A stretch of 64,000 bases of DNA from Nitratireductor arenosus. Lineage in GTDB: Bacteria > Pseudomonadota > Alphaproteobacteria > Rhizobiales > Rhizobiaceae. The stretch is from assembly GCF_009742725.1 (NCBI RefSeq), contig NZ_WPHG01000001.1, forward strand, positions 1,090,001 through 1,154,000, written 5' to 3'. Below the pieces are notes generated by a model that saw only the letters and a list, made by a program, of their open reading frames with translations, ran no database searches and had not been told where the DNA came from. Positions 23,018 through 26,430 of this stretch are shown here, piece by piece (the first letter of the stretch is position 1; each line of letters begins with the position of its first letter). The translations under genes were made by a program, and so were the position numbers.

Positions 23018-23035
23018 TATTCTAGTGCTAGAATA
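23018..23035. promoter_or_regulatory. 18-bp palindrome over the padR-gyrI start codon
   Basis: TATTCTAG-TG-CTAGAATA is a perfect inverted repeat whose last base is the A of the start codon. TTGACA lies at 22999-23004. The palindrome also contains TGCTAGAAT, similar to an extended -10 element. PadR regulators bind palindromes overlapping their own promoters, so this is a good candidate for an autoregulatory operator. Confidence 0.65.
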
Positions 23036-24177
23036 TGAAGAATTTGACCAGCGCCGAATTCGCCGTGCTGAGCCTGCTCGGCGAGGCGCCGTGCCACGGC
23101 TACGAGCTCGAGCGGCTGATCGAGGAGCGGGGATTGCGCGAGTGGACAGAAATCGGTTTCTCGTCGATCTACTTCCTGCTCGACAAGCTGCGAAAGTCCG
23201 GGCTGGTCGAGCCGCTTGCCGGACATGGCGGCGGCAAGTCGAAGCGGCCCTTCCGTCTCACAGGCGGCGGCGAGCGTGTGCTCGTGAACGAGACCCGACG
23301 AACGCTCGCCGAACCGCAGCGGCACTATCCGCGCCTGCTGCTCGGCCTGGCGAACTGGCCGGCGATCGGGATGGCGCAAGGGACCGCCGCGCTGGCCGCT
23401 CGCGGCGAGGCACTGCAGGCGGAGGCGCGGCGGCTTGCCGCGATCCGTGACGGCCAACAACCCCGTCCTGTTTTCGTCGACGCGATGTTCGACTACGCGA
23501 TCGGCCAAATCGAGGCGGAAATGGCGTGGCTGCGTGGAACGGTATCACGCATGGAGACGGCGATGGACAAGATCGATTTCAAGAGAACGCTGAAGGCGCT
23601 GTACCGGCCGCCGGCCGGCGAATGGGTGGAGGTCGACGTGCCGCGCCTGTGCTACGTCATGATCGACGGCGTCGGCGACCCGAACAGCTCGGGCGATTAT
23701 CGACGCGCCGTGGAATGGCTTTACGCGGTCAGCTATGCCGCGAAATTCGCCGCCAAGACCAGCCTCGGCAAGGATTATGTCGTGCCGCCGCTCGAAGGGC
23801 TGTGGTGGGCGGACGATCCGCGAAGCTTCATCGACCGCCGCAAGGAGGAATGGCGCTGGACGATGATGATCATGGCGCCGGACTTCGTCGACAAGGGACT
23901 GTTCGAGGGCGCGGTCGCCAAGGCGTCGCGAAAGTTCGGCGCGCGCCCGGAAAGCCTGAGGCTGGCGCCTTTGGAAGAGGGGCTTTGCTTGCAGACGTTG
24001 CATATCGGCTCTTACGATGACGAAGGGCCGGCGCTGGCCCGGCTTCATGGCGAGCTGATGCCGTCGCGCGGCTACGAATTTTCCGGTCCGCACCACGAGA
24101 TCTATCTCGGCGATCCGCGAAAGGTCGAACCGTCGAAGTTGAAGACGATCCTGCGCCAGCCGGTACGGCAGGCCTGA
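23035..24177 (+). CDS. PadR regulator fused to a GyrI-like ligand-binding domain
   Basis: A 380-residue fusion. Residues 1-85 are a PadR winged helix (LTSAEFAVLSLLGEAPCHGYELERLIEERG, then SSIYFLLDKLRKSGLVEP). Residues 85-175 are the helical PadR C-terminal dimerisation arm. Residues from about 180 form a GyrI-like small-molecule-binding domain, starting MDKIDFKRTLKALYRPPAG with VMIDGVGDPN, and ending GRDP-like in EIYLGDPRKVEPSKLKTILRQP. The second part usually occurs as a free-standing protein beginning at this methionine. A regulator that senses a bulky cationic or aromatic compound is likely. No efflux gene is adjacent. No ribosome binding site is visible before the ATG. Confidence 0.85.
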   Translation: MKNLTSAEFAVLSLLGEAPCHGYELERLIEERGLREWTEIGFSSIYFLLDKLRKSGLVEPLAGHGGGKSKRPFRLTGGGERVLVNETRRTLAEPQRHYPRLLLGLANWPAIGMAQGTAALAARGEALQAEARRLAAIRDGQQPRPVFVDAMFDYAIGQIEAEMAWLRGTVSRMETAMDKIDFKRTLKALYRPPAGEWVEVDVPRLCYVMIDGVGDPNSSGDYRRAVEWLYAVSYAAKFAAKTSLGKDYVVPPLEGLWWADDPRSFIDRRKEEWRWTMMIMAPDFVDKGLFEGAVAKASRKFGARPESLRLAPLEEGLCLQTLHIGSYDDEGPALARLHGELMPSRGYEFSGPHHEIYLGDPRKVEPSKLKTILRQPVRQA

Positions 24178-24228
24178 CGCGTTCCCGCCGCCTGCTTGCG
24201 AAGAGTTTCCGCAACCGCTGCGGACCGA

Positions 24229-25383
24229 CTATTGCGCCGCGCCGAAATATTGTTCGCGCAACGCCTCGACCCGACCGTTTTCATGCATGCCGAGAAGCTG
24301 GATGGTTACCGGGCGCGTCAACGCGCTGCCATGGGCGAGCCCGAAACCGTATTTGTCCGGTTCGAAGATTGGCCCCACCACATCGAAAGCCTCCTTCGGG
24401 TGGCTATGCGTGAAATATTCAAGCACCGGCGCGTCACCGACGATAGCGGCGACCCGATCGTCTCGCAAAGCTTCCGCCGCGGCGTCCAAATCGTCGAACG
24501 AACTGTGAGCGATCGCGGTTTCGCGCACGAATTCCTCGGCCACGCTGCCGGTGAAAACTCCGACGCGCTTGCCGGGAAGATCCTCAAGGCTGTTGATCTG
24601 GCTGGTGAGCGAAAGCGTGGTCATCACGCTCGTCACCGAGGAGGTGACATAGGCAAGCACTGCAATGCCACACACCAGCCACAGCGCCTGCCACATGCGG
24701 CCGATCCAACCGAACAGGTTCTTGCGTGACGGCATTTTCCCCGACGTCGCCACTGACATGACCGAATGGAAACTTTCGGCCAGACCGTCGCGCCACCGGC
24801 GTGGAAAGTTCGCGTCGAAGCGCCGGTCGAAAAACGTCAGAAGGATGGTGGCCGCGACGATGACCAGCGCCAACCATCCATAGGCGCGCAGATGGCCCGA
24901 ATCGCGCAGCCCGGCGACCACGTCGCCGAATCCGGCGCTTCGGTTTTCGGCGACCATGATCCGCAGCCCGGCGTCGAACCAGGGATGGGTGAAGTCTATG
25001 CGCTCCGCGCGCTTGCGCGTTATGGTGAGGTTGGTGACCGCCACATCGACGGACCCGTCCGCGATCGCGTCGACGAGAGTGCGAATGGACGGGAAGGGTT
25101 TGTAGCTGAAGTCCAGCTCCAGCTGTTCGGCGATCTCTTCCCACAGATCTATCGCCATGCCTTCGTAACCGTTCTCTGCGGCGATGACGAATGGCGGACT
25201 GGCATAGACCCCGACGCTGAGCCGGTCTGCCGGCGCGGTCCCCTCCTGCACGGAAGCTGTCGTGACCGCGCCAAGCAGAAGCAGCATGGCCAGCATCCCA
25301 CGCCCGAGAAGTACGCGAAGGATCGTGGTTTTACGTCTCTCCGCGTATCCGCGGCAGGGTTGTGATGTCGACAGGAGAGCCAT
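24229..25383 (-). CDS. Glutamate-receptor-like ligand-gated ion channel (GluR0 type)
   Basis: A 384-residue protein combining a periplasmic amino-acid-binding fold with an inserted pore. A signal peptide or anchor occupies 20-45. Lobe S1 is at about 54-163 with the receptor signature LTITRKRAERIDFTHPWFDAG. A membrane helix spans 167-186, a re-entrant pore loop about 200-218, a second helix 230-257 (ending AYVTSSVTSVMTTL, like the M3 gate of ionotropic glutamate receptors), and lobe S2 258-384. This order is that of GluR0-type prokaryotic receptors. The potassium-filter TVGYGD is absent; SVATSGKMP occupies its place. It is divergent from phnC and convergent with the PadR fusion. Confidence 0.85.
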   Translation of the reverse strand: MALLSTSQPCRGYAERRKTTILRVLLGRGMLAMLLLLGAVTTASVQEGTAPADRLSVGVYASPPFVIAAENGYEGMAIDLWEEIAEQLELDFSYKPFPSIRTLVDAIADGSVDVAVTNLTITRKRAERIDFTHPWFDAGLRIMVAENRSAGFGDVVAGLRDSGHLRAYGWLALVIVAATILLTFFDRRFDANFPRRWRDGLAESFHSVMSVATSGKMPSRKNLFGWIGRMWQALWLVCGIAVLAYVTSSVTSVMTTLSLTSQINSLEDLPGKRVGVFTGSVAEEFVRETAIAHSSFDDLDAAAEALRDDRVAAIVGDAPVLEYFTHSHPKEAFDVVGPIFEPDKYGFGLAHGSALTRPVTIQLLGMHENGRVEALREQYFGAAQ

Positions 25384-25521
25384 GACGCGGTGCTATAAAC
25401 GAACCGAATCGGCATCTCAACTCTTTCATCATCGGACAGCTAGTCGGCTAAAATTTTCTCGGACCGGCTATGGCAACAAGCGATGACGGGGAGCCGCCCA
25501 TCCCTGTGCGGCGTTACAGAA

Positions 25522-25539
25522 CTGTCATCATCCTGACAT
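25522..25539 (+). promoter_or_regulatory. Pho box upstream of phnC
   Basis: CTGTCAT, spacer CATC, then CTGACAT: a near-perfect pair of CTGTCAT direct repeats (7/7 and 6/7) at the correct 11-base spacing, 69 bases before phnC. It predicts PhoB activation of the phosphonate transporter operon under phosphate starvation. Confidence 0.8.
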
Positions 25540-25608
25540 TCCATATTCACGCGGCTTCGCTAGCGGAATTCCCACAAAAGGCGAAAACCGCCACGCGGGA
25601 AAGCAAGC

Positions 25609-26430
25609 ATGCTGAAGATCCTAAAGGTCACGCGGCGCTTCGGCAAAAAGATCGCCGTTGACGGTGTCGATATCGAGATTGGTGACGGCCAGATGGTCGG
25701 CATCATCGGCCGTTCCGGGGCGGGAAAATCGACCCTGCTGCGCATGATCAACCGGCTGATCGACCCGACAGAGGGGGCGATCTCGTACGCCGATCGCGAG
25801 GTTTCCGCCTTGCGCGGGGCCGCCTTGCGGGCCTGGCAGCGCGACTGCGCGATGATCTTCCAGCAGTTCAATCTCGTGCCCAGGCTCGACGTGGTTTCCA
25901 ACGTCCTGCACGGCGTGCTCAATCGCCGCTCGACGCTGTCGACGGTTTTCAGTCTCTACCCGACCGAGGATATTCACACCGCGATCGATATTCTCGACCG
26001 GCTCGGCATCGCCGATCACGCGGCAAAGCGCGTCGAGGCGCTCTCCGGCGGTCAGCAGCAGCGCGTGGCGATCGCGCGGGCCCTGATGCAGGATCCGAAG
26101 GTCATCCTCGCCGACGAGCCGATCGCCTCGCTCGATCCGATGAACGCCCAGATCGTCATGGACACGCTGCGCCGGATCCACGACGAGGACGGCCGCATGA
26201 TCGTGTGCAATCTGCACACGCTCGATACCGCCCGTCGCTATTGCGACCGCGTTGTCGGGATGCGTGACGGCGCGATTGTGTTCGACGGCGTTCCGGACGA
26301 GCTGACCACTTCCGTCGCACGACAGATTTACGGTGCCGGTGAAAGCTTCTCGGAGGCGTCCACCTCGACGTCGATCGAGGTGCTTGAACCGATTCGCGAG
26401 CCGGTTCGCGAGCCAGCCTACGCAGTCTGA
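25609..26430 (+). CDS. phnC: Phosphonate ABC transporter ATPase PhnC
   Basis: A 273-residue ATPase of the phosphonate importer. Walker A is GRSGAGKST, the Q-loop lies in [19 protein letters not shown] (a PhnC hallmark), the signature is [15 protein letters not shown], Walker [13 protein letters not shown], and the switch residue is in CNLHTLD. A C-terminal tail of about 25 residues ([14 protein letters not shown], then [12 protein letters not shown]) extends beyond most homologues. It energises PhnE1E2 with PhnD as binding protein. It is the first gene after the Pho box. Confidence 0.95.

Follow-up and report, generated by a model that had tools for sequence, protein, structure and literature searches.

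A putative amino-acid-gated channel of the prokaryotic glutamate receptor kind, without the potassium filter, in Nitratireductor arenosus

What kind of protein is made from a gene whose product carries the two-lobed ligand domain of an ionotropic glutamate receptor (iGluR), together with a pore that does not read as a potassium filter? The gene in question lies in a window of 64,000 nucleotides from Nitratireductor arenosus, the window being the whole stretch of DNA analysed here. Its product is probably a pore-loop channel of the prokaryotic iGluR kind that sits in the inner membrane, is gated by amino acids and does not select for potassium. Computation shows an S1/S2 clamshell, a conserved M1-pore loop-M2 module inserted in it, and the loss of the potassium filter. 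About 80 non-redundant relatives, mostly from Alphaproteobacteria, share what is here called the SGK pore.

Functional work found on bacterial glutamate receptors concerns the potassium-type GluR0. From a compact, conserved and widespread clade whose filter is inverted in charge, one would learn what ions such a receptor pore passes, and also how ligand specificity shifted. The protein has an estimated 340 or so mature residues and neither an M4 helix nor an ATD, and the channel reading would correct its common annotation as a transporter binding protein.

Domain layout and predicted fold

The gene and its parts, with coordinates in the window, are as follows.

24229..25383, minus strand: receptor-channel gene (P0001), 384 amino acids, ATG start (open reading frame list and translation)
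25249..25383, minus strand: N-terminal segment, residues 1-45, with a hydrophobic helix at 19-39 (sequence and low-confidence model)
24943..25221, minus strand: S1 lobe, residues 55-147, including Thr120 and Arg125 (Pfam)
24817..24894, minus strand: membrane helix M1, residues 164-189 (AlphaFold)
24742..24795, minus strand: pore helix, residues 197-214 (AlphaFold; Trp197 in 80/80 relatives)
24709..24741, minus strand: filter and loop to M2, residues 215-225, GKMPSRKNLFG (conservation counts)
24604..24708, minus strand: inner helix M2, the counterpart of animal M3, residues 226-260, containing TSSVTSVMT (AlphaFold)
24241..24603, minus strand: S2 lobe, residues 261-381, including Ser280-Val281 and Asp317 (Pfam)

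An earlier note, made from the letters of this DNA, read the protein as a receptor channel like GluR0 but lacking the potassium filter, and gave its order as S1, helix, pore loop, helix and S2, as in iGluRs. It had read the letters LTITRKRAERIDFT and SVATSGKMP correctly. Pfam, phmmer and AlphaFold agree on the order, and topology, fold match and filter loss all support, by computation, the receptor-channel assignment. In Pfam, SBP_bac_3 is split over residues 55-381 (E 7e-22), Lig_chan-Glu_bd lies at residues 55-146 (E 2e-12) and Lig_chan at residues 172-270 (1.6e-5), the last with 25.2 bits for the whole protein, below its cut-off of 30.8. The pore segment searched alone gains 27.1 bits against the same cut-off, and of five SGK pores one exceeds it (L036, 34.7). 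The top phmmer match among sequences of solved structures is the Nostoc receptor ligand core 2pyy. Single continuous stretches also match plant GLR3.4 (residues 95-379, covering part of S1, the pore and S2; E 5e-15) and NMDA 3A (residues 53-380; E 2e-13). Both Pfam and AlphaFold place the pore module between the lobes, as an interruption of the two-lobe domain. The protein stops three residues past S2 and so has no M4; 79/80 relatives have at most four residues beyond position 381. The helix at 19-39 is read as a putative Sec signal peptide. A copy of the channel with 96% identity is present in Nitratireductor alexandrii.

The full-length AlphaFold model, a monomer from an alignment of 57 rows that included three potassium-type sequences and one of another type, has a mean pLDDT of 84.7 and displays S1, M1, the pore helix, the loop 215-225, M2 and S2; the pore loop, whose absence would have told against a channel, is predicted. 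In VIA-align comparisons the ligand domain matches 2pyy with Z 31.8 (rmsd 1.3 over 212 residues) and the GluR0 structure 1ii5 with Z 30.0. Modelled alone, the membrane part has the same helices at modest confidence (pLDDT 71.5, pTM 0.53), from an alignment that held 28 rows of other receptor types and could pull the model toward a channel fold. The 50 fold matches listed for the membrane module are pore-loop channels throughout (Z 9.2-10.5), with CNG, SthK, HCN, GsuK, TRPML and NavMs among them. The make-up of this list carries more weight than the height of Z, since such values can be common for mostly helical models; no glutamate receptor is among the 50, which excludes nothing.

How might such a protein work? 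Four subunits would assemble around a central pore, with the clamshell on the periplasmic side and the pore loop presumably entering from the cytoplasm. When Arg125 and Asp317 hold an alpha-amino acid, the clamshell would close, and its closure would pull M2 open.

The pore and its conservation

The potassium filter TVGYGD is not present in the window protein, and GYG was not found in the SGK rows read. The earlier note had set SVATSGKMP at the place of TVGYGD. The absence of the filter stands, but the pairing depends on the alignment: the profile-profile alignment puts T213-S214-G215-K216 opposite T-V-G-Y and R220 opposite the filter Asp, so that the earlier pairing is one of several choices. 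As profiles, 46 SGK pores match 26 other bacterial receptor pores with a probability of 99.7 and E 3e-26. The distance from the start of the pore helix to the GR of M2 is 26-27 residues in 60 SGK rows, 26 in 21 potassium rows and 24 in three Nostoc-type rows, counts from which 20/80, 13/34 and 6/9 rows, respectively, were left out where the wrong stretch or nothing was caught. No large insertion or deletion is therefore required between SGK and GluR0-like proteins. Could the pore be a potassium channel with an unusual filter? The characterized bacterial relative GluR0 does conduct potassium, according to the available part of a published account (PMC13099474), but with GYG absent from the SGK rows read and a basic residue within the filter this is very improbable.

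The counts of 80 given here and below come from two slightly different sets, each cut at 95% identity and including the window protein. The set for pore conservation was picked by the M2-end pattern and is without the Microbulbifer and Synechococcus members; that for charge and ligand-site counts was picked by a wider pattern. Trp197, Gly215, Gly225 and Gly228 are invariant, Arg220 is kept in 77/80, Asn222 and Trp226 in 79/80 each, and position 216 holds Lys or Arg in 78/80. The stretch 208-229 is free of acids in 78/80 SGK members and has a net charge of +4 in 69/80. In contrast, exactly one acid is found there in all 34 potassium-type relatives, and one or two in all nine Nostoc-type relatives.

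Is this, then, an anion-permeable receptor channel, in which the filter acid has been swapped for a ring of Lys or Arg (216 and 220) and the ligand lets anions through? The charge counts are what such a channel would lead one to expect. An arginine at the animal Q/R site raises the chloride permeability of kainate receptors. However, five of 18 rows with yet other filter types are also acid-free, so the absence of acids is not in itself unique to the SGK clade. The positive-inside rule alone predicts the share of positive charge that is in the cytoplasmic loop, Lys or Arg follows the filter in potassium types too, and the side chain at 216 need not face the pore. Anion permeation is thus unlikely. 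For the preferred amino-acid-gated channel, a first guess is that the pore is poorly selective among ions.

The end of M2 is kept too, with Thr247, Met254 and Thr255 in 80/80. The earlier note had likened this segment to the animal M3 gate. The SGK profile reads YVTSSVTSV at the place aligned with animal SYTANLAA, with Thr kept, and T247 and T255 are invariant in the 57 alignment rows. Three potassium types and one other type are among these rows; the likeness is a family feature only.

The channel pore is under purifying selection. By the Nei-Gojobori method, in 12 chosen pairs, dN/dS for residues 197-229 ranges from 0 to 0.195, being below 0.10 in 11 pairs and 0.195 in one. It is lower than in both lobes in 9/12 pairs for this stretch and in 8/12 for the membrane part. 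Exceptions are L045/L049, where filter and membrane part both exceed the lobes, and L001/L005, where the filter exceeds S1; the S2 ratio of L051/L061 could not be computed, and for L015/L073 changes are few and the S1 ratio is close to 1. The low ratios point to a pore maintained as a distinct kind, and from its sequences the SGK pore looks like a kept type of its own rather than a decayed potassium filter. The conserved pore could also serve in assembly, or in the gating of a non-conducting pore.

A related possibility is a non-conducting sensor, in which the old pore merely anchors the ligand-binding domain and couples it to other proteins. The filter is unlike both potassium and animal filters, and the window pore falls under the Pfam Lig_chan cut-off, as such a sensor might show. 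Yet the filter stretch is more constrained than both lobes in most pairs rather than relaxed, the few residues after position 381 leave no space for a C-terminal signalling domain, and no general partner gene was seen among the neighbours scanned (below). Such a sensor is accordingly somewhat less likely even than anion permeation.

Non-potassium filters in bacterial receptor-like proteins are diverse. VVNGGFEERMP, AVLNEAGDVS and MTQAGAAQNAP are examples, and loci with other, non-SGK filters are L126, L127, L098 and L131; L097, L105, L106 and L107; and L124, L136 and L173. In one genome (G234), four receptor-like copies share one strand within a stretch of about 5 kb.

Ligand site, spread and gene neighbourhood

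Arg125 is present in 79/80 and Asp317 in 78/80 SGK relatives. They occupy the places of the Arg and Asp that hold glutamate, as set out in the available part of Ger et al. (PMC2950845). Other positions differ from those of the potassium and Nostoc types. Position 281 is Val or Ile in 73/80 SGK members versus Thr in 22/34 potassium and 9/9 Nostoc types, and position 316 is Gly or Ala in 75/80 versus Tyr, Phe or His in 31/34 potassium types and Phe in 9/9 Nostoc types. Glycine in GluN1 is contacted by T518, R523, S688 and D732, with neighbours V689 and W731 (PMC7596085, in the part available). Mapped by motif (spacing T-x4-R) and not by alignment, these contacts would correspond to T120, R125, S280 and D317, and the S-V and W-D pairs to S280-V281 and G316-D317. 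Since Val or Ile replaces the usual Thr, as in glycine-binding GluN1, the ligand is probably not glutamate held in the GluR0 way, and Gly or Ala at 316 gives room for a ligand side chain. A first guess from these residues is a neutral amino acid with a side chain that the site could accommodate. Counter to this, the nearly invariant Lys344 (78/80) could bind an acidic ligand. The fuller combination, an amino-acid-gated channel with a basic filter and a GluN1-like site for a neutral amino acid, passing anions or favouring no cation, is a tentative reading to be held at the same low level as anion permeation.

How widespread is this pore? Named genomes, when scanned, yielded 73 loci, mainly in Rhizobiales and Rhodobacterales by record title, with further carriers in Microbulbifer, Luteimonas, Sandaracinobacter and Synechococcus SynAce01. 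The SGK pore is carried by 72 of them and is thus not a matter of chance. Locus L076 matches in the S1 part only and is without a pore. At E 1e-10, 24 of 101 near genomes (the window's own among them) match, 15 of them with the SGK type; of 398 genomes drawn evenly from the phylum, 28 have a receptor-like match at E 1e-25, seven of them SGK, the window's included. In cyanobacteria, 36 of 194 genomes have a match at E 1e-20, and one of 31 loci read is SGK, in a genome picked as centre because it carries that type.

Plasmids carry such genes as well. Twenty plasmid records have a match, four of them from Salmonella, and of five loci read four are SGK-like (L170, L171, L172 and L174) and L173 is of another type. 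The Salmonella plasmid genes (L169 and L174; four records) are about 41-44% identical, the two records examined are typed conjugative, and the L174 copy, with a TTGK-type pore, is annotated as two pieces. On Agrobacterium plasmids, the channel gene lies near DUF3011, MFS, CPA2 antiporter and LprI-like genes (L172) and near DUF3011, MFS, trimeric cation channel and DedA genes (L171), which may represent a run of stress genes. A gene that moves alone, plasmids included, fits a self-contained channel.

Is the protein instead a binding protein tethered to the membrane and serving an amino acid ABC transporter, as its public annotation would have it? In 18/20 plasmid records the gene is annotated 'transporter substrate-binding domain-containing protein', the other two being unannotated there. 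An amino acid ABC binding-protein-like gene (named from sequence) is near the channel in 21/74 loci and an ABC permease-like gene in 14/74, all from Brucellaceae, Pseudaminobacter and one Rhizobiales isolate; in Brucellaceae and Pseudaminobacter the channel also lies near a cystathionine-lyase-like gene (19/74 loci). Ordinary family 3 binding proteins, however, have no pore-loop insert between the lobes. Among 148 neighbours of 37 loci scanned with Pfam, from which L045, L046 and L062 (Brucellaceae) and L036, L041 and L043 were left out, BPD_transp_1 occurs in two, one being the phosphonate permease of L005. In this sample, with Brucellaceae and Pseudaminobacter mostly left out, there is little sign of a linked transporter. 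The ABC reading is highly improbable. No general partner gene was seen among these neighbours in the 25 families listed of 162 matched, where LprI occurs five times and MFS_1 four times.

The window gene has neighbours of another sort. It has a PadR/GyrI-like gene on one side and, on the other, a divergent ABC ATPase gene read as phnC, and a phosphonate-binding-protein gene and two permease genes lie beside these; phnJ is about 4 kb away. The PadR regulator carries a fused GyrI-like ligand-binding domain (23035-24177, plus strand); its gene is within the phosphonate region and convergent with the channel gene. One further feature lies in this region.

25522..25539, plus strand: Pho-box-like site CTGTCATCATCCTGACAT, with one mismatch, in the gap between the channel gene and the divergent phnC-like gene

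This site is the single match in the window at two mismatches or fewer, where 0.32 are expected by chance and 28 of 100 shuffled sequences had one. It is a candidate only, and control of the channel gene by it is not supported. A promoter scan of 24000-25700 found none.

Does the channel belong functionally with phosphonate genes? The earlier note placed it divergent to a phosphonate transporter, which is so in the window, but the arrangement is seen only in the window's genus. It also proposed a search for co-occurrence with phn genes. With the channel and phnJ scans taken as the same 101 genomes (G000-G100), phnJ is present in 14/15 near genomes with the SGK gene versus 44/86 without (Fisher p 0.002); within the family, the association weakens to 12/13 versus 31/48 (p 0.085). 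Close linkage, within about 5 kb, occurs in 3/15 near genomes with the channel, each belonging to the window's genus; a fourth member of that genus has the channel at a contig end, where linkage is not readable. Of the 73 named-genome loci, L005 alone has phn-region genes in common with the window within 6 kb. A general phosphonate partnership was rejected on these grounds: the phosphonate genes are a local neighbourhood of the window's genus, with no general functional link.

Relation to known receptors

In a tree of 118 rows, the SGK relatives form one clade with support 98, and in a tree of 86 rows without the filter columns support is 100, both being quick trees without bootstrap. The first tree was built without five fragments or odd rows and the second without 13 rows, L102 among them. 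Three rows labelled 'other' by pattern (L034, L036 and L091) fall inside the SGK clade of the larger tree, L102 stands beside it on a very long branch, and the Nostoc type sits among the potassium types. When SGK and the Nostoc type are held together, the tree has p-AU 0.758 and is likelier than that of the free search. As this grouping is not rejected, one origin of the non-potassium pores and two are both possible.

Is the pore close to the eukaryotic type, as the earlier note had ventured? Comparisons went against this idea. On the Pfam Lig_chan model, five SGK pore segments reach 24-35 bits, those of five other bacterial members 54-72 bits. An SGK-only pore profile finds GluA-type chains at E about 0.01 and GLR3.4 at E 1.4e-5; the profile built from 26 other bacterial pores, helped by being more diverse, finds both at about 1e-15. 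Plant GLR3.4 and animal iGluRs do share with the window protein a continuous match through pore and lobes. They differ from it in that it lacks the ATD and M4 and its SGK pore is less similar to theirs than the pores of other bacterial members are.

GluR0 of Synechocystis has the same S1-M1-pore loop-M2-S2 layout without M4 or ATD, the same ligand Arg and Asp, and a ligand domain of the same fold (1ii5, above). The window protein departs from it in having no potassium filter, an acid-free filter stretch and Val for the ligand Thr (Val or Ile in the clade). The part of the GluR0 literature available places both termini of GluR0 outside the cell and reports a role in cell volume maintenance (PMC13099474). 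The ligand core 2pyy of Nostoc punctiforme matches the ligand domain best in both sequence and fold; that structure covers the ligand domain only and has GST where the window protein has GSV. The Nostoc-type pore, from cyanobacterial genomes, reads TLATQADEMP and has acids, unlike SGK.

How do these proteins fit the existing grouping of prokaryotic receptors? Ger et al. (2010) listed 22 prokaryotic sequences of S1-M1-pore loop-M2-S2 topology; in the part of that paper available, ten form a Group 2 with unrecognized, non-potassium pore regions, and Group 2 shares with the window protein the receptor topology and a pore unlike the potassium filter (PMC2950845). The SGK clade is apart from the potassium-type rows that correspond to Group 1, which holds GluR0, a protein not identified by name in the trees. 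From its accessions, Group 2 is taken here to include the Nostoc/Anabaena type, and a ZP record in its list is presumably Paracoccus denitrificans. On the 1.73 Mb replicon of P. denitrificans, the one full-length receptor-like match is of SGK type, a count for that replicon only, which makes an SGK protein within Group 2 plausible. No report of the SGK pore type was found among open-licence PMC papers. Since non-potassium bacterial receptors were already described as Group 2, the kind of channel is itself not new; the SGK pore is a further form of the non-potassium bacterial receptors outlined by Ger et al. (2010).
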